A stretch of 64,000 nucleotides of DNA from Rhodococcus sp. CH91. Lineage in GTDB: Bacteria; Actinomycetota; Actinomycetes; Mycobacteriales; Mycobacteriaceae. Within the stretch, counting starts at the first letter, position 1. Every line of letters starts with the position of its first letter. The notes under the pieces were generated by a model. The model saw nothing but the letters and a program-made list of their open reading frames with translations, made no database searches and had not been told where the DNA came from. Positions 15,559 through 22,460 of the stretch are shown one piece after another. The stretch spans positions 1 through 64,000 of the forward strand of contig NZ_JAKFYR010000003.1 in NCBI RefSeq assembly GCF_022554085.1, in the 5' to 3' direction. A program made the position numbers and the translations under genes.

Positions 15559-16332
15559 GTGACCCCGCTCGAACTGTTCCTCGTCGCCCTCGCCGGCCTG
15601 GGCGCCGGAGCCATCAATTCCCTCGTCGGGTCCGGCACCCTCATCACGTTCCCGACGCTCGTCGCGTTCGGGGTGCCGCCCGTGACGGCGACGATGTCCA
15701 ACGCGATCGGTCTCGTCGCCGGTGGCGTATCCGGAACCTGGGGATACCGACGCGAATTGCGTGGGCAATGGACTCGCCTGCGATGGCAGATCCCGGCGTC
15801 GTTCGGTGGTGCTCTCCTCGGAGCCTGGCTCCTGCTGCACCTACCGGAGACGGTCTTCGAGACCGTCGTACCGGTCCTGCTCGTGCTGGCGCTGGTTCTC
15901 GTCGTGCTGCAGCCGAGGATCCAGGCCTGGGTGTCGCGCAGATCGGGTGGCGATGCCGACGGACGACTCGGACCGGTGCGGACGACCTTGCTCATCGGTG
16001 GTACCTTCGCCGTCGGCGCCTACGGCGGGTATTTCACCGCCGCCCAGGGGATTCTCCTGATGGGTCTGTTCGGCGCCTTGCTGAACGACGACATCCAGCG
16101 CCAGAATGCCGCGAAGAATCTGCTGTCGCTGGTCGTGAACGTCGTCGCCGCCGGCGCGTACATCCTCGTCGCCTTCGACCGGATCGATTGGACGGTCGCG
16201 GCATTGATCGCTGCGGGGTCGCTGGTCGGCGGTCATCTCGGTGCGCTCTACGGGCGCCGCCTGTCGCCGACCGCGTTGCGGATCGTGATCGTCGTGGTCG
16301 GACTGGTCGGCTTGTACCGCCTGCTCTTCTGA
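15559..16332 (+). CDS. Sulfite exporter TauE/SafE (TSUP) family membrane protein
   Basis: 257-residue membrane protein with about eight predicted spans. The first half carries the family motif AGAINSLVGSGTLITFPTLV and the second half has the equivalent repeat GAYGGYFTAAQGILLMGLFG, with NAAKNLLSLVVNVVAA. TSUP proteins move sulfite, sulfoacetate or other organic and sulfur anions across the inner membrane. The GTG start is preceded by a suitably spaced -10 hexamer rather than a ribosome site. A 24-codon frame at 15488-15562 overlaps the start but has weak support. Divergent placement next to the transporter operon fits a sulfur-related role, by inference. Confidence 0.87.
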   Translation: MTPLELFLVALAGLGAGAINSLVGSGTLITFPTLVAFGVPPVTATMSNAIGLVAGGVSGTWGYRRELRGQWTRLRWQIPASFGGALLGAWLLLHLPETVFETVVPVLLVLALVLVVLQPRIQAWVSRRSGGDADGRLGPVRTTLLIGGTFAVGAYGGYFTAAQGILLMGLFGALLNDDIQRQNAAKNLLSLVVNVVAAGAYILVAFDRIDWTVAALIAAGSLVGGHLGALYGRRLSPTALRIVIVVVGLVGLYRLLF

Positions 16333-16381
16333 GCCGTGGGAGTTCGTCGTTTCTTCCTGAAGATAACGAAACCATTTCCTA

Positions 16382-16418
16382 CCGTCCCTATTGATTGCAA
16401 ATGCCTCACAAGGGACGG
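16382..16418 (+). terminator. Hairpin between the TSUP gene and the SipW locus
   Basis: Eight-base perfect inverted repeat CCGTCCCT / AGGGACGG (16382-16389 and 16411-16418) with a 21-nt loop, in a locally AT-richer 159-base gap. It could end the TSUP transcript or act in the 5' region of the export locus; no U-tract follows. The rest of the gap holds the promoter region of the following operon, but I could not assign -35/-10 boxes confidently. Confidence 0.35.
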
Positions 16419-16491
16419 GCTTTAGGTATGGAATAGATCACATTGGGTATCCAACGGAAACCGGAAAGCGTGATCTTCGAGGGGAGACCGT

Positions 16492-17052
16492 ATGAAAAAA
16501 CAGACCAAAGGCGCGATAGCCGCAGGTGCCGGAGCGATCCTGCTCCTGGGCGGGCTGGGCAGCCTGGCGTTCTGGAACGACCAGACCGACGGTGACGCCG
16601 GAACGATCACGTCCGGTCAGCTGACGCTCGGGGAGTGCGTCGGCGGCGGGACGTGGACCGATGTCGGCACCGGGGCGCCGATCGGCGACATCTCCTCGTT
16701 CCGGATCGTCCCGGGCGACACCGTGCGCTACACCTGCAACACCACACTCACCGCCCAGGGCGACAACCTGCAGGCCACCCTCACCGCCAACCTCGACGGT
16801 GTCACAGGCGACGCAGAACTGCGACAGGCGTTGATCACGACCGTCGATGCCAGTTATGCCGGGCAAACGTTCTCGGGCGGGACGGACGGAGTGCAGGTCA
16901 CCGCCAACGACGGCACGGCACAGCCCATTTCGGCGACCGTCACCGTCACCTTCGATTCCGCCACGTCGGGGACGACCGGCCAGAATCAAACCGTCGACCT
17001 CGGCAATCTGGGTCTGAATCTGGTGCAGAACACGAACCCCGACCCCGCATAA
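16492..17052 (+). CDS. SipW-type alternate-signal exported protein (RER_14450-like family)
   Basis: 186 residues. The N-terminus is a basic stretch (MKKQTKGAIAAGAGA), a hydrophobic core and the alternate signal pattern SLAFWNDQTDGDAG, with TITSGQLTL after it. This matches actinobacterial proteins exported through a dedicated SipW-type signal peptidase and related in concept to Bacillus TasA/CalY. The mature part (about 150 residues) is rich in Thr, Asp and Gly, has two cysteines that could form a disulfide, and looks like a beta-sandwich. A GAGGGGAG ribosome site precedes the ATG. It is the first gene of a five-gene locus and probably a fibre or matrix subunit; that role is inference. Confidence 0.82.
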   Translation: MKKQTKGAIAAGAGAILLLGGLGSLAFWNDQTDGDAGTITSGQLTLGECVGGGTWTDVGTGAPIGDISSFRIVPGDTVRYTCNTTLTAQGDNLQATLTANLDGVTGDAELRQALITTVDASYAGQTFSGGTDGVQVTANDGTAQPISATVTVTFDSATSGTTGQNQTVDLGNLGLNLVQNTNPDPA

Positions 17053-17056
17053 GGGC

Positions 17057-17602
17057 ATGAGGCGGGGATCGATCTGGATCGCCGCAGTCGCATCGGTTCT
17101 GCTGGTGGCGCTCTGGTCCACTCAGCAGACCGGCGCGCTGTGGCGCGACAGAGCACAGATCAGCGGCGGGACGATCACCTCGGGAAGCCTCACGATCCTG
17201 GCGCAGGGCTCCCAGGACTACACGTGGTCGAACTTCGGCGGCACCAATCTGTCGCGGGGATCCGTTGTGCAGCAGCCATTGACGGTCACCGTCGAAGGTG
17301 ACGTCGAAGCACGTTACCGGCTGCAGGCAGTACAGCCTGGTTCGCCGCAGCTGCCGATCGCAGTGACAGCGTGGATCGTCCGGTCCGCCGACGCATGCCC
17401 GACCTCGTCCGGTGGAGCAGTGGCTGCGCCGGTCTCGACGGTCGACGGGCCTTGGACTGCGTTTCCGGCTCCAGGGGAAGGACGGTCGGCCGCACCGGGC
17501 ACCACAGAGGTGTGGTGCCTGCGGGCGACCGTCGGAGCCGACGCAGCACAAGGCGCGTCGACCGCACTCGCGCTCGAATTCCGAGTGGAGCAGAAGACAT
17601 GA
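17057..17602 (+). CDS. Second SipW-type exported protein
   Basis: 181-residue secreted protein. A hydrophobic N-terminal segment (WIAAVASVLLVALWSTQQ) leads into TGALWRDRAQISGG and TITSGSLTIL, the same alternate-signal layout as the preceding gene. The mature region contains a short Cys pair (ADACP and VWCL) and ends LALEFRVEQKT, resembling a small beta-rich surface domain. It begins five bases after the first gene's stop and overlaps the signal peptidase gene by four bases (ATGA), so substrate and peptidase are made together. No enzymatic motif seen. It may be a minor or anchoring subunit; I have no direct family name for it. Confidence 0.78.
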   Translation: MRRGSIWIAAVASVLLVALWSTQQTGALWRDRAQISGGTITSGSLTILAQGSQDYTWSNFGGTNLSRGSVVQQPLTVTVEGDVEARYRLQAVQPGSPQLPIAVTAWIVRSADACPTSSGGAVAAPVSTVDGPWTAFPAPGEGRSAAPGTTEVWCLRATVGADAAQGASTALALEFRVEQKT

Positions 17603-18189
17603 ACGATTCGCGAGACGGGGACGAGCACACGGGGCCGTTCTGGTGGGTCGGCTCCGTACTGACCTGGGCCCTGCTGTTCGCCATGCTCACACTGCTGGCG
17701 GTCACCATCCTGATTCCGGCGGTGGCAGGTGGCGAACGATTCACCGTACTGACCGGGTCGATGGATCCCACCTATCCGCCCGGCACCCTCATCGTGGTCG
17801 TGCCGGTCGAGCCCGACGAGCTCGCGGTCGGAATGCCCGTGACGTACCAGTTGCGTTCGGGCGAGCCCACTGTGGTGACACACCGGATCGTCGCCTCCAC
17901 CCAGTCCACGAAGGGGAAACGCACCTACATCACCCGGGGCGACGCCAACGACGTCCCGGACGAGGATCCGATCGTCCACGAGCAGATCCGAGGGCGGGTC
18001 TGGTATTCGATCCCCTATCTCGGCTACGTGAACAATTGGCTCACCGGGCAACAGCGCTCGTGGACGATCGGGATCATCGCCACTGTCCTGTTCGCTTATG
18101 CGGCAACTCTGTTCGCCGGCGGGATCCGGGACGGTGGACGTGAGCGCGCGGAGCGGGCGTCGAGAGGAGACCATGCGCACCGGAGATGA
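17599..18189 (+). CDS. sipW: SipW-type signal peptidase I
   Basis: 196-residue membrane serine peptidase of the S26B (archaeal/ER-like) type. After a first span (residues about 18-42) it has the catalytic serine box FTVLTGSMDPTYPPGTLIVV, box D with TVVTHRIVAS (His in place of the bacterial Lys) and box E RGDANDVPDEDP; a second span near residues 155-175 anchors the C-terminus. SipW enzymes cleave alternate signals of TasA/camelysin-type proteins, as encoded on either side here. It overlaps the upstream substrate gene by four bases and the downstream one by 17 bases. The gene symbol reflects family membership, not shown function. Confidence 0.87.
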   Translation: MNDSRDGDEHTGPFWWVGSVLTWALLFAMLTLLAVTILIPAVAGGERFTVLTGSMDPTYPPGTLIVVVPVEPDELAVGMPVTYQLRSGEPTVVTHRIVASTQSTKGKRTYITRGDANDVPDEDPIVHEQIRGRVWYSIPYLGYVNNWLTGQQRSWTIGIIATVLFAYAATLFAGGIRDGGRERAERASRGDHAHRR

Positions 18190-18808
18190 CGTCCTCGATC
18201 GACTGCGCACGTACGCGCGGGGCGCCCGTTGGGCGTTCACCGTCCGGGTACGCGCCCTGCTCTCACTCGGCACGATCCTTGCACTCGGCGCCGCGGGAAC
18301 CTTCGCTGCGTGGGCGAATTCAGCTGTTGCCACGGGAACATTCAGCACCGGCACGGTCGACCTCCGCGCGAACGACGTGAAGTCCTTCACGTTCTCCGAT
18401 CTGACCGTGTCGGGCATGATGCCGGGAGAGAGCCGGGCGGGGAGTCTGCGGGTCCAGAACACACGGTCGACGATGGACGTCCTCTATACGGTGGGTGTCG
18501 CCACGCCTGTGGGAAGCCCCGCACTGGCGAACAGCCTCCAGCTCAGAGTCTTCAGCGGGGGAACTCCGTCGAACACCACCGCGGGCGGCATGCGCACGGG
18601 ATCGTGCACGGGCACGCAGATCGGGCAGGCGAACCCGGCTGCGGGAAGTACAGCACCCCTCGTCACGACGGCGCGTCCCCTCGCCGCGACGACCGGTATC
18701 GAGACACTCTGCATGGTCGTGTCGCTTCCCGCCTCGGCGCCGCTCACCACACAGAACCAGAGCGTGACCGCCCTCGTGTTCACCTTCGCCGCGCAGACCA
18801 CCGTGTGA
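18173..18808 (+). CDS. SipW-dependent exported protein, TasA/CalY-like
   Basis: 211 residues starting at the ATG with GAGAGGAGA just upstream. A charged N-terminal arm (about 25 residues) is followed by a membrane-spanning signal (LLSLGTILALGAAGTFAAWAN) and the cleavage context ATGTFSTGTVDL. The mature part has the camelysin-like layout FTFSDLTVSGMMPGESRAGSL, VQNTRSTMDVLYTVGV and a C-terminal ALVFTFAAQ. TasA and CalY form extracellular fibres in Bacillus, so this is the best candidate for a fibre subunit here; that function is inferred. The gene overlaps the signal peptidase gene by 17 bases. Confidence 0.83.
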   Translation: MRTGDDVLDRLRTYARGARWAFTVRVRALLSLGTILALGAAGTFAAWANSAVATGTFSTGTVDLRANDVKSFTFSDLTVSGMMPGESRAGSLRVQNTRSTMDVLYTVGVATPVGSPALANSLQLRVFSGGTPSNTTAGGMRTGSCTGTQIGQANPAAGSTAPLVTTARPLAATTGIETLCMVVSLPASAPLTTQNQSVTALVFTFAAQTTV

Positions 18809-18815
18809 GGCCGCA

Positions 18816-20777
18816 GTGAACGGACACGGGATCGAGACGCGACCCGCACGCAGATGGCGGGACACCGCGCTGACCGTCGGCGCCGTCGTCGGCAGTCTGT
18901 GCATCCTGGCCACCGTCGTGTCGATTCTGTTCGGCGTGACACCCCTGGTCTTCCGTTCGGGTTCCATGGCGCCCGCGATCCCGTCGGGCGCGCTCGCGAT
19001 CGCACGGGACGTCCCTGCGGCCGAACTTCGGGCGGGTGATGTGGTGAGTGTGATCAACGATCAAGGAAGCCGTGTCACCCACCGGATCGTGGAAGTGCAG
19101 TCGATCGCCGGAAACACGGCACTCCTGCGGCTGCAGGGTGATGCGAATCCGGAACCGGACGCCCGAAGCTACGGGGTGAGCTCGGCGGAACGCGTCCTCT
19201 TCCACGTCGACGGTCTCGGCTATCTCGTGGCGTGGCTCCGGACCGTCCCCGGTCTTCTCGTGCTGGCGATACTGTCCGCTGTCCTCGTCCGGATCGCGAT
19301 GCGCCCGAACGGTCCTGTGCGCACGAACACCTCCGTTCCCGCGACCCCGCTCGCCGTACTCGTGATCGTGTCCGCGGTCGGCATCGCACACACGCCGGGA
19401 ACCGGGGCGACCTTCACGGACAGCGCGACCGCCAGGAGTGGGGCGTTCACGTCGAAAGCCGAGTACGTACCGAGAATCTCGGGGACCGTCGGCTGCACCA
19501 GCAAGTCCGTCGCCGACCTGCCCGATCCGGTCACGCTCAGATGGACCCATCTGGGAGCGCCCTATCAGTACCGGATCATCCTGCGGGACCTGGACGGCCG
19601 GGTGTGGCGCACCGCCGACGTCACGAACATCACGGTGGCAGCGGGCAGCACGATCACGTACGACCTCTACGGCACCGGCCTTCCCCGCCGCAGCGTCATC
19701 TGGCAGTACAACGCGGAAGTACACACCATGCTGCCGGGAGGCGCCGTGTCGGCAGCGTGGCGGGGCCGCCTCGTCTCCCAGCCTCTGTCGGCAGGCAACC
19801 ACAACCAGGATCTCAACTGCAGCCCGAGCGGTGAACGTGACGGGACTCCGACCTATGTGGCGCCGCCGGCTTCCGTCACCTGCTCCACCACCGGTACAGG
19901 CAGCGGCACCACGGCTGTGTTGACGTGGCCGCACGTCGGCACGGGCGTCACCTATCACGTCACCGCGCGTAATCCGTCGAACGGCAATATCGTCTATGCC
20001 ACCACCGTCACCGCCACCCCGGCGACCGCAGGGCAGCCGGTGACCGGCAGGATCTCCCGGACCAATCTCGACACCGCTCTCATCACCGCCGACACTGTCG
20101 TCGCCGAGGTCAGATCCGTTCAAGGAGGCTCGTACTCCACGGGATTCGTCGCATATCGCGTGAGCACGACCGCCACGACCGGTGTCACATGCTCCGCCCC
20201 CGCGGCAGGAGCACGCTCGTTGCCACAGGTGCCTGCGGCCCCGACGACGTCCGTCCCCCCGGAGAGCGCTGCGGCCTCGAGCGTTCCGGGCGCTGTGACC
20301 ACCGAGAGCAGTCCCGCACCGCCCGGATCACCGTCCGCGCCCGAGGAGACGGCGCTGACCGCCGCGGTCCGCTCACCGTCCGGCCTGTACTCGGCGCGTC
20401 TCGTCGGATCGGAGGACGGGATCCACGCCGTGATCACCTCCGCGCCCGGTGACGAGGAGTATCGCACCGACGCATCTGTGAACGACACGCTCAGGTGGGC
20501 GACGGAGACGGACCGGTTGCACATCACCGGAAGCTCGGGGAGCTGGGTGATCACCGAAGTAGGGGGCTCGTGGGTCAAGACCGCAGTGGTCGAGCCGGCC
20601 CCCGCTCCCCCTCCTGCCCCCGCCCCGTTGCCGGACCCTGTCCCATCGCCGGTCGACGAGCCCGCACCGGTTCCCGTCCCGGAAGAAGCTCCGGCACCAC
20701 CTCCGCCGACCTCGCCGTCCGCCGATCTTCCCGAGCCCGCCGTGGAGCCGCCTCCCGACGATGGATCGGAGGGATGA
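18816..20777 (+). CDS. S26B signal peptidase fused to a SipW-type exported surface domain
   Basis: 653 residues. Residues about 1-160 form a second SipW-like peptidase: membrane span, serine box FRSGSMAPAIPSGALAIA, His box SRVTHRIVEV, Asp box LQGDANPEPDARS and another span. Then comes a further hydrophobic segment (TPLAVLVIVSAVGIAHTPG) followed by TGATFTDSATARSGAFTS, which itself looks like a SipW-type cleavage site. The remainder holds two Cys-containing, probably fibronectin/Ig-like beta domains (residues about 215-470), a Ser/Pro linker, a small beta domain and a Pro-rich acidic tail (about 595-653). So enzyme and substrate-like export domain are one polypeptide. GTG start, eight bases after the preceding gene's stop. 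No sortase motif is seen. Confidence 0.8.
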   Translation: MNGHGIETRPARRWRDTALTVGAVVGSLCILATVVSILFGVTPLVFRSGSMAPAIPSGALAIARDVPAAELRAGDVVSVINDQGSRVTHRIVEVQSIAGNTALLRLQGDANPEPDARSYGVSSAERVLFHVDGLGYLVAWLRTVPGLLVLAILSAVLVRIAMRPNGPVRTNTSVPATPLAVLVIVSAVGIAHTPGTGATFTDSATARSGAFTSKAEYVPRISGTVGCTSKSVADLPDPVTLRWTHLGAPYQYRIILRDLDGRVWRTADVTNITVAAGSTITYDLYGTGLPRRSVIWQYNAEVHTMLPGGAVSAAWRGRLVSQPLSAGNHNQDLNCSPSGERDGTPTYVAPPASVTCSTTGTGSGTTAVLTWPHVGTGVTYHVTARNPSNGNIVYATTVTATPATAGQPVTGRISRTNLDTALITADTVVAEVRSVQGGSYSTGFVAYRVSTTATTGVTCSAPAAGARSLPQVPAAPTTSVPPESAAASSVPGAVTTESSPAPPGSPSAPEETALTAAVRSPSGLYSARLVGSEDGIHAVITSAPGDEEYRTDASVNDTLRWATETDRLHITGSSGSWVITEVGGSWVKTAVVEPAPAPPPAPAPLPDPVPSPVDEPAPVPVPEEAPAPPPPTSPSADLPEPAVEPPPDDGSEG

Positions 20778-20780
20778 TCC

Positions 20781-20865
20781 GAAGCTTGCAGGGCCACAGT
20801 AGAGCTCGCAGCCCTGGAGGTCGTCCTCCAGGGCTGCGAAGTTCACTTTTGCCCTGCGAACTTTC
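20781..20865. repeat. 85-bp nested palindromic element, copy 1
   Basis: Four copies of a ten-base box related to AAGCTCGCAG, two direct (from 20781 and about 20802) and two inverted (ending about 20845 and 20865), surround a perfect 13-bp stem with a 4-nt loop centred near 20820 (GCAGCCCTGGAGG and its complement). It begins three bases after the stop of the fusion gene. A second 85-bp copy with the same layout lies at 41188-41272. It probably forms a strong bidirectional RNA hairpin (terminator) or a mobile REP/MITE-like element. Confidence 0.75.
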
Positions 20866-21038
20866 TCCTGCAGCGACACGCCGGTTCCGCTGTTCGTGAC
20901 GTCGAAGGTCACCCAGCCCGAGTAGGTGGTTACGGGGTCGAACACGGTCGGTAAGGGCGTACCCACATCACGTTCCCCGGTCGCTGAGCCGACGGCCGCG
21001 GTTCCTCCGTCGGCGAGGACCTCCTCGACATCCGACAC
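20866..21038 (-). pseudogene. Possible remnant of a small protein gene
   Basis: A GTG at 21038 with GAGGG upstream opens a frame with natural-looking composition (VFDPVTTYSGWVTFDVTNSG, then TGVSLQEKV). It runs without a stop through the 85-bp palindrome and into the oppositely oriented fusion gene down to 20373, so the original 3' end seems to be missing. I read the piece above the palindrome as a possible truncated gene. It could equally be chance coding-like sequence in GC-rich DNA. The 21039-21119 stretch shows nothing further. Confidence 0.25.
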
Positions 21039-21119
21039 ACGGAGACCCTCGAGATGATGTGCACCGAGAGGTGCTCACGGTCAACCGCACGGCGACGCAA
21101 CCGGACGAGGGCGTTCTTT

Positions 21120-22460
21120 CTATTTCAGAATCAACGGAATTCCGGCGACCACGAGCACTGCCGATTCGCTCACTTCCGCGACCGTCGCGTTGAGCCGGCC
21201 CAGCAGGTCGCGGAACAACCGTCCCGAGGATGTCGCCGGAACCACCCCGCTGCCCACCTCGTTGCTCACGGCGACGACCGGTACCGCGCACTCCCGCCAC
21301 GCGGCGAGCAAGTCCTCCATGTCGGAACGGACGGGCCCGAGGTCGCCACCCTCCCAGACGCCGTGGCGATCCAACCTCCCCGTCAGCCAGGTCCCGAGGC
21401 AATCGATCAGGAGCGGATCCGTGGCCGTGCGCAGCACATCGGCCACATCGACCGTCTCGATCGTCGACCACGAATCCGGTCGCCTTTCCCGGTGCAGCGC
21501 AACACGTTCGGCCCATTCGGAGTCACCCTCGCGCGTCCCGCCGGTGGCGACGTAGGTGACGGTGCGGTGGGCAGCCAGCATGTCCTCGGCGTAGCGCGAC
21601 TTGCCCGAGCGCACACCCCCGAGCACGAGCGTCCGATGTGCCGCTGCGGCAGATCCTCCACCCACGTGCACCGCCTCACCATCGCTTCCCGCACGAGCAC
21701 CGAACTGCTGCAACCGGTTCCGGAGTGATCCGATGTCCGGATTGTGATGTCCCAGGTGCACCGCGACGACATCGGTCTCCGCCGTGACGGCACCCACGCC
21801 GCGCAACCCGTCCACCATCGCACCGAACTCGGCGAGTCCGAGATGACCGTCGGACAACTCGGAGCGGTCGCCGAATGTCTCCTCGAGGAACACCGCATCG
21901 AACTGCGCGTCGCGCACCGCGCGGAACCATTCCTGCGGCCACGGCCCGGTGTCGCACGCCCACAGCAACCGGGACCCGCCGGGGCCCGTGACGTCGTACA
22001 GCACGGCGTCGCCGTCCCGGAAGACCTTGTGCCGAGCGGGAAGGACGCGCACGTCGTACTCCCCCACCGCGATCCGCGCACCGGGCTCGACCGGCACGAA
22101 CCGCACGGGGTCGCCGGGGCCCACCCACGGCCGGCAGGTATCGAGGGCATCGGCAGGGCCGATCACCTCGAGCTCGCCGCACCCCTCGATCCACGACCGG
22201 AACAGCAGCGCCTGCGGTCCCAGATGGTCGGCATGGGCGTGCGTCAGGAGAATGTGCCGCACGTTCGCGAGCGTCCTGCCGTAGCGCACGGCGGCGCGCG
22301 GAGCCTCCGGCCCGCAGTCCAGCAGCAACACGTCGTCGACGAGTGCCGCCGTCTGCCCGCGGATCTCCCCGCGGCGCGCGGCGTCCGAGCAGGATACACA
22401 CGAGCAGAACGGATTCGGCCACCCGTCGGCCGCGCCGGTGCCCAGGAGTAGGACCTCCAT
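21120..22460 (-). CDS. cobU: MBL-fold hydrolase fused to CobU (adenosylcobinamide kinase/guanylyltransferase)
   Basis: 446 residues in two domains. Residues 1-260: metallo-beta-lactamase fold close to PhnP-type hydrolases, with metal ligands THAHADHLG, CDTGPWP and HLGHHNPD plus a Cys-rich N-terminal loop CSCVSC. Residues 270-446: CobU, with the P-loop GGVRSGKSRYAEDML, YVATGGTREGDSEWAERVALH and the late VSNEVGSGVVPATSSGR motif. CobU converts adenosylcobinamide to its GDP derivative in nucleotide-loop assembly. The MBL half may act on a phosphorylated lower-ligand or corrinoid intermediate; that is inference. The ATG overlaps the btuD stop by one base, as last gene of a riboswitch-controlled operon. 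Confidence 0.85.
   Translation of the reverse strand: MEVLLLGTGAADGWPNPFCSCVSCSDAARRGEIRGQTAALVDDVLLLDCGPEAPRAAVRYGRTLANVRHILLTHAHADHLGPQALLFRSWIEGCGELEVIGPADALDTCRPWVGPGDPVRFVPVEPGARIAVGEYDVRVLPARHKVFRDGDAVLYDVTGPGGSRLLWACDTGPWPQEWFRAVRDAQFDAVFLEETFGDRSELSDGHLGLAEFGAMVDGLRGVGAVTAETDVVAVHLGHHNPDIGSLRNRLQQFGARAGSDGEAVHVGGGSAAAAHRTLVLGGVRSGKSRYAEDMLAAHRTVTYVATGGTREGDSEWAERVALHRERRPDSWSTIETVDVADVLRTATDPLLIDCLGTWLTGRLDRHGVWEGGDLGPVRSDMEDLLAAWRECAVPVVAVSNEVGSGVVPATSSGRLFRDLLGRLNATVAEVSESAVLVVAGIPLILK

Follow-up and report, generated by a model that had tools for sequence, protein, structure and literature searches.

We analysed a stretch of 64,000 nucleotides from Rhodococcus sp. CH91, an actinomycete of soil type (contig NZ_JAKFYR010000003.1, positions 1 to 64,000; hereafter the window) and confirmed that a tight operon of five genes at 16492-20777 of the + strand, in the order A, B, SP1, C, SP2, is a SipW-type export operon. 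Computation established the operon, the homology of its products, an internal signal in SP2 (by profile comparison) and the existence of both fused and split forms of SP2 among relatives. The operon likely makes a TasA-like surface fibre, and our overall reading, to which we assign a probability of about 0.6, is that of a TasA-like fibre system in which a peptidase is fused to the fibre initiator, for which we infer cleavage, polymerisation, initiation and the pairing of peptidases with substrates.

A five-gene SipW-type export operon

Gaps or overlaps between the five genes measure 4 to 17 bases, and the ATG of SP1 overlaps the stop codon of B. Gene A (16492..17052) encodes an exported TIGR04089 protein of 186 amino acids (aa), with a predicted cut after A26 (SLA/FWND, the stroke marking the cut). 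Gene B (17057..17602; 181 aa) encodes an alternate-signal exported protein, homologous to C and with a predicted cut after A27 (TGA/LWRD), and gene C (18173..18808; 211 aa) an exported TIGR04088 protein with weak camelysin/BsaA/TasA similarity and a predicted cut after A45 (TFA/AWAN). SP1 (17599..18189; 196 aa) is an S26B (SipW/SEC11-type) signal peptidase with S54, H95 and D115, and SP2 (18816..20777; 653 aa, GTG start) is a peptidase fused to a substrate.

To compare relatives, we searched genome contigs with SP1, obtaining 22 loci, and added forty further stretches picked for their match to A or SP2 and hence biased towards those genes. Removal of seven loci with an identical SP2 peptidase reduced these 62 to 55, the loci L025-L066 from the genome searches not being counted. 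Alignment rows were dropped for B (the frameshifted L008 and two L024 rows), C (two of the second L007 cluster) and SP2 (L014, with a run of N; the second L007 peptidase; and unrelated matches in L021, L023 and L024), and none for A or SP1.

The original prediction held that three small proteins share an alternate signal, and A, B and C indeed bear a SipW-type signal: across all six frames of the 64 kb, the motif GTx[ST][ST]Gx[LV] has exactly three occurrences, one in each of these proteins, whereas 100 residue shuffles averaged 0.26 and never exceeded 2. An AxWxD-like site had also been proposed, which reads A-x-W-x-D in A and B, but A-x-W-x-N in C. When signal rows were aligned at the predicted cut, with the window's own rows counted in (24 A, 21 B, 22 C and 21 SP2), P1 was Ala in 24/24 A, 21/21 B, 22/22 C and 21/21 SP2 rows, and P2' was aromatic in every A (24/24), B (21/21) and C (22/22) row. 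According to the excerpted text of PMC10269814, an aromatic P2' is poorly handled by Escherichia coli signal peptidase I and is present in TasA cut by SipW. Mature TasA starts at residue 28, as given in the available portion of PMC10151520, and its P2' is therefore F29, a residue counted among the donor-strand contacts in the part of PMC9674648 at hand.

Two signal peptidases had likewise been predicted, one of them an S26B enzyme with Ser, His and Asp placed among its substrates, and both were recovered: Ser-Met, THR and GDAN boxes were found in SP1 and SP2, with the catalytic residues invariant in 24/24 SP1 rows (S54/H95/D115) and 21/21 SP2 rows (S50/H89/D109), own rows included. Against the S26B model TIGR02228 (cut-off 51.85 bits), SP1 scored 92.1 bits and SP2 50.5, slightly under the cut-off, and 21/21 SP2 rows matched the model at E <=1. 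A profile of SP2 and its relatives matched SEC11A (E 1.2e-6). Neither peptidase reached the cut-off (190 bits) of the Bacillus SipW equivalog NF046067, the scores being 74.7 for SP1 and 44.9 for SP2.

All five genes were present in 50/55 loci, the exceptions being L008, L024, L103 (near a contig end), L105 and L106. A-B-SP1-C-SP2 was the commonest order; five loci had the order A, C-SP2, A-B-SP1, SP2 ran in the opposite direction in L073 and L087, and L106 had C-SP2 without A, B and SP1. Given these variant orders, A-B-SP1 and C-SP2 can be regarded as modules that separate from each other; this suggests SP1 as the peptidase for A and B, and SP2 as that for C and its own ectodomain.

Three loci deserve separate mention. 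L004, whose record bears the title Kitasatospora arboriphila, contains the complete operon, with an SP2 that is sister to that of a Williamsia, and represents either a transfer between distant actinomycetes or a mislabelled genome. Williamsia muralis (L006, 5386-10461) carries an additional A-SP1 pair ahead of the five-gene operon. In Nocardia higoensis (L008, 5413-6618), B and SP1 read as one 401-aa frame; we set aside a true fusion here, a frameshift near the end of B being likely.

SP2 is a natural peptidase-substrate fusion

Residues 1-165 of SP2 (18816..19310) form the S26B peptidase domain, with two membrane segments. A third hydrophobic segment (residues 173-191, 19332..19388), read as the core of a former signal peptide, is followed by an internal SipW-type site, A/TFTDSATARSGAF (residues 198-211, 19407..19448), where residues 202-211 have a predicted local distance difference test score (pLDDT) <50 in the model. 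Beyond it lie two FN3-like domains (residues ~226-462, 19491..20201) with Cys near each end (C227/C335 and C356/C459), a Pro/Ser/Thr-rich linker (49%; residues 466-526, 20211..20393), and a C-terminal stretch with a proline-rich tail (20394..20774; 41% Pro in residues 590-653). Part of this C-terminal stretch (20394-20585) lies where the SP2 profile gives a weak match to WD-repeat proteins (E about 0.003), as a single blade-like unit.

The three strongly hydrophobic segments of SP2 begin at residues 23, 144 and 173, and the last of them is followed by TGA/TFTDSATARSGAFTS, in which A198 and A204 are invariant in 21 rows. By profile comparison, the region of the internal site matched the signal of C with P 3e-8 and those of A and B with P about 7e-6. 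As controls, four membrane segments from the two peptidases scored lower, the closest being SP1 segment 2 against the A signal (P 6e-4), and none of 100 shuffles that kept hydrophobic and polar halves apart reached the observed scores. Canonical-looking sites also occur in the SP2 of several family-draw relatives, for example TSAAFTDSATAKSGT in L075. The third hydrophobic segment was found in 41/42 fused SP2 rows examined. The exception, L105 (6143-8314), is a fused relative of 723 aa in the clade of a second cassette, without a clear third segment, and so departs from the usual form of the fusion. We rejected the idea that SP2 is a plain second peptidase, because the third segment, the site and the ectodomain are conserved. 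Since SP2 holds both an internal signal and a secreted half, the three substrates originally predicted, A, B and C, stand, but the count was too low, with four candidates in all.

Among the 55 unique SP2 rows, 42 are fused and 12 are split, the remaining one (L014) having a run of N after the peptidase. In the split rows the peptidase ends in a tail of 15-42 residues, and in 8/12 of them (L074, L087, L089, L096, L098, L100, L101 and L102) the gene that follows scores 16 to 126 bits against a profile built from the SP2 ectodomain, with the bias filter off, so that low complexity may have raised these values. By eye, all eight next genes have a hydrophobic opening stretch and an Ala-ended site, and a scripted motif pattern was in register in 5/8. 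A stricter profile of one FN3-like unit found three non-SP2 frames among 2,879, all of them ectodomain next genes (L087, L100 and L074); it misses the other five next genes and finds 42/61 SP2 rows. For the split rows L085 and L106 the signal alone was seen, and no ectodomain partner was found for L073 or for the second L007 cluster, which lies 646 bases from the end of its stretch.

In a tree of the peptidase domain, at least seven changes between fused and split forms are needed, five of them forced by well-supported branches (L014 counted as fused). SP2 is a natural peptidase-substrate fusion, because split rows exist in which the next gene is a relative of the ectodomain with its own signal; the most fitting reading of the third segment is that it was once a signal peptide. 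From the occurrence of both forms it follows that the fusion unites neighbours that work together.

A candidate TasA-like fibre and its alternatives

With TIGR04089 (exp_by_SipW_III; cut-off 60 bits), A scored 170.5 bits over positions 1-179, and B (24.0 bits, over the first part of the model) and C (21.2 bits) remained below. Because A belongs to this catalogued family, the general kind of system is already known. A (25.4 bits) and C (25.9) exceeded the cut-off of 19 bits of TIGR04088 (cognate_SipW), a model for which B and SP2 of the window were not listed. The predicted A fold, one of two that we made (the other being of the SP2 ectodomain), had the TasA fibre as its best Foldseek match among solved structures and the bundling pilus of Pyrobaculum calidifontis (7ueg) as its second. 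Residues 27-38 of A, at the position of the TasA donor strand, have low pLDDT. The original prediction of a SipW-TasA fibre is supported in part: the predicted fold of A has its best, if modest, match in TasA; the cut-offs of the TasA and SipW equivalogs were not reached, C scoring 17.2 bits with NF046066 (cut-off 450 bits).

We propose that A, B and C would leave the cell through Sec with alternate signal peptides, which ordinary signal peptidase would cut poorly given their aromatic P2', and that the S26B peptidases would cut them instead. Since the two gene sets are separable in relatives, SP1 would most likely act on A and B and SP2 on C. The freed N-terminal segment of each would be a donor strand inserted into the next subunit. 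The SP2 peptidase probably frees its fused secreted part; a cut after A198 would release an ectodomain whose N-terminus is donor-like, whose FN3-like domains are complete and which carries the proline-rich tail. Such an ectodomain would be able to donate a strand without being able to receive one, and so would initiate the filament or cap it, as TapA does. In its most specific form, which we offer tentatively, SP2 would be a self-processing peptidase-initiator polyprotein, in which the cut after A198 within its own chain at once releases, at the membrane, the donor strand of an initiator resembling TapA, tying nucleation one-to-one to the export peptidase. An ectodomain that is itself a TasA-like subunit was rejected, as the model shows FN3 folds.

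Several alternatives to this proposal were weighed. In the first, the internal site stays uncut: the third segment would be a plain membrane anchor, and the FN3 ectodomain would remain attached to the peptidase and serve at the fibre base as a docking platform or an adhesin. P2' is aromatic in just 6/21 SP2 rows, and many matches to the A/B/C signal profile are weak: 5/21 single SP2s score in register above the 99% shuffle level and 1/21 beats the best of 2,100 shuffles, so that the site may have decayed after fusion. Nevertheless, the rows combine the P1 Ala with a small P3 (T, S or A) in 21/21 cases, the ectodomain relatives next to split peptidases have their own signal, and repeated switching between fused and split forms is easiest if cleavage renders them equivalent. 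We consider an uncut SP2 doubtful.

A role for the ectodomain as a tip adhesin or surface receptor whose FN3 and proline-rich parts extend from the wall, with no part in starting a fibre, seems to us about as unlikely. Tandem FN3 domains and proline-rich stalks are common in adhesins, and SP2 has both. However, the segment after its predicted cut matches C, A and B by profile, which would be needless in a plain adhesin.

Less probable still is that A, B and C are monomeric secreted surface proteins or camelysin-like enzymes rather than filament subunits. Comparison of a predicted structure with TasA, along the lines that the original prediction had called for, was made on A and placed the TasA fibre first, but the match to TasA and the archaeal pilus is modest, and the best TasA sequence match of the C profile has an E value of only 0.97. 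The camelysin model PF12389 (cut-off 22.5 bits) was not reached, with 20.5 bits for C and no match for A. On the other hand, both top folds for A are donor-strand filaments of the TasA superfamily, and at E <=0.1 Pfam M73 (camelysin PF12389) was matched by 13/22 C rows and 8/24 A rows, and the SipW-dependent biofilm matrix model TIGR04090 by 11/22 C rows.

Finally, split forms occur, but a long SP2 produced by misannotation or read-through of two genes is highly improbable, as 42/54 scorable rows are single open frames across several genera, including R. gordoniae (74% identity over residues 4-653).

Genomic slot and relation to known systems

The operon is flanked by a TauE/SafE-like gene and a presumed cobalamin block (names from reading the translations), and both flanks were found on one contig in 17/18 same-genus genomes. 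Between them, the window and G003 carry the five-gene operon; G008, G009, G014 and G015 a different SipW-type cassette, in the orientation opposite to TauE; G002, G005, G006 and G013 fewer than 100 bases; and G001, G004, G007, G010, G011, G012 and G017 a slot of 1.5-3 kb without match to either cassette. The TauE-to-cobalamin junction (16332-21136 in the window; L107-L121) is thus an exchange slot with two cassette types, near-empty sites and unrelated content. Within the window, a terminator-like hairpin of 15 pairs (20806..20839, + strand) lies 3' of the operon, followed on the - strand by the decayed tail of a SipW-type substrate of the other cassette (20877-21104; L106 8742-8988), with 66.7% aa identity over 66 residues to a 567-aa substrate in L106. 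A scan of 16300-21100 for sigma-70-type promoters found none. G014 has the reciprocal remnant, an SP2 tail. Because the window and G014 each retain the tail of the other's cassette, their ancestor probably had both cassettes tail to tail (convergent), with reciprocal loss thereafter.

TIGR04089 was above its cut-off in 35/101 family-draw genomes and in 1/81 order-draw genomes, the latter being the window's own, and SP2 was matched in 8/18 same-genus genomes, mostly through the peptidase part of the second cassette type. The slot pattern speaks for accessory, exchanged surface structures. A plasmid origin was discarded, as the operon had no megablast match in 72,556 plasmid records, and so was a phage origin, with just three weak SP1 matches in unannotated gut-phage records, none covering 80%.

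As in tapA-sipW-tasA of B. subtilis, an S26B peptidase adjoins small alternate-signal substrates, the predicted A fold is closest to the TasA fibre, and a conserved segment after the cut lies at the position of the TasA donor strand. Unlike there, the operon has two peptidases and three small substrates, with a TapA-like layout fused to a peptidase. By prediction, the SP2 ectodomain resembles TapA in that layout, a disordered N-terminus cut by a SipW-type enzyme, a complete domain with a Cys pair, and a tail; it differs in having no TapA family match and an FN3 rather than a V-set Ig fold, and neither TasA nor TapA chains were among the 50 best rows listed for its model (Foldseek or VIA). The sipW-tasA/calY/capP system of B. 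cereus, as presented in the excerpt of PMC13082335, similarly combines several co-assembling SipW substrates with a chaperone-like modulator, but CapP is described there as a separate gene, whereas in our operon the second peptidase carries the candidate modulator as a fused part. The NCBIfam models TIGR04089 and TIGR04088 account for the signal and a single family of substrates but do not describe the five-gene operon or the fusion, and the archaeal pilus 7ueg of P. calidifontis was absent from the sequence matches to the A profile. Searches of the open-licence literature, judged by titles and the opening of abstracts, turned up no work on this operon or on a fusion of peptidase and substrate, and no TasA-type fibre described for Rhodococcus and its kin.

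In outline, then, this is an ordinary member of a known family; the variation in its parts is new, and the fused peptidase and initiator are the point of interest. SP2 represents a naturally occurring union of peptidase and substrate, with several switches between fused and split genes in its history. If our reading is correct, TasA-type, SipW-dependent fibres extend to Rhodococcus and its kin. In B. subtilis, according to the available portion of PMC10151520, overlapping genes give no more than a hint of a connection between TapA and SipW; here a link of this type would be covalent, making the cooperation of a peptidase with a fibre initiator directly testable.

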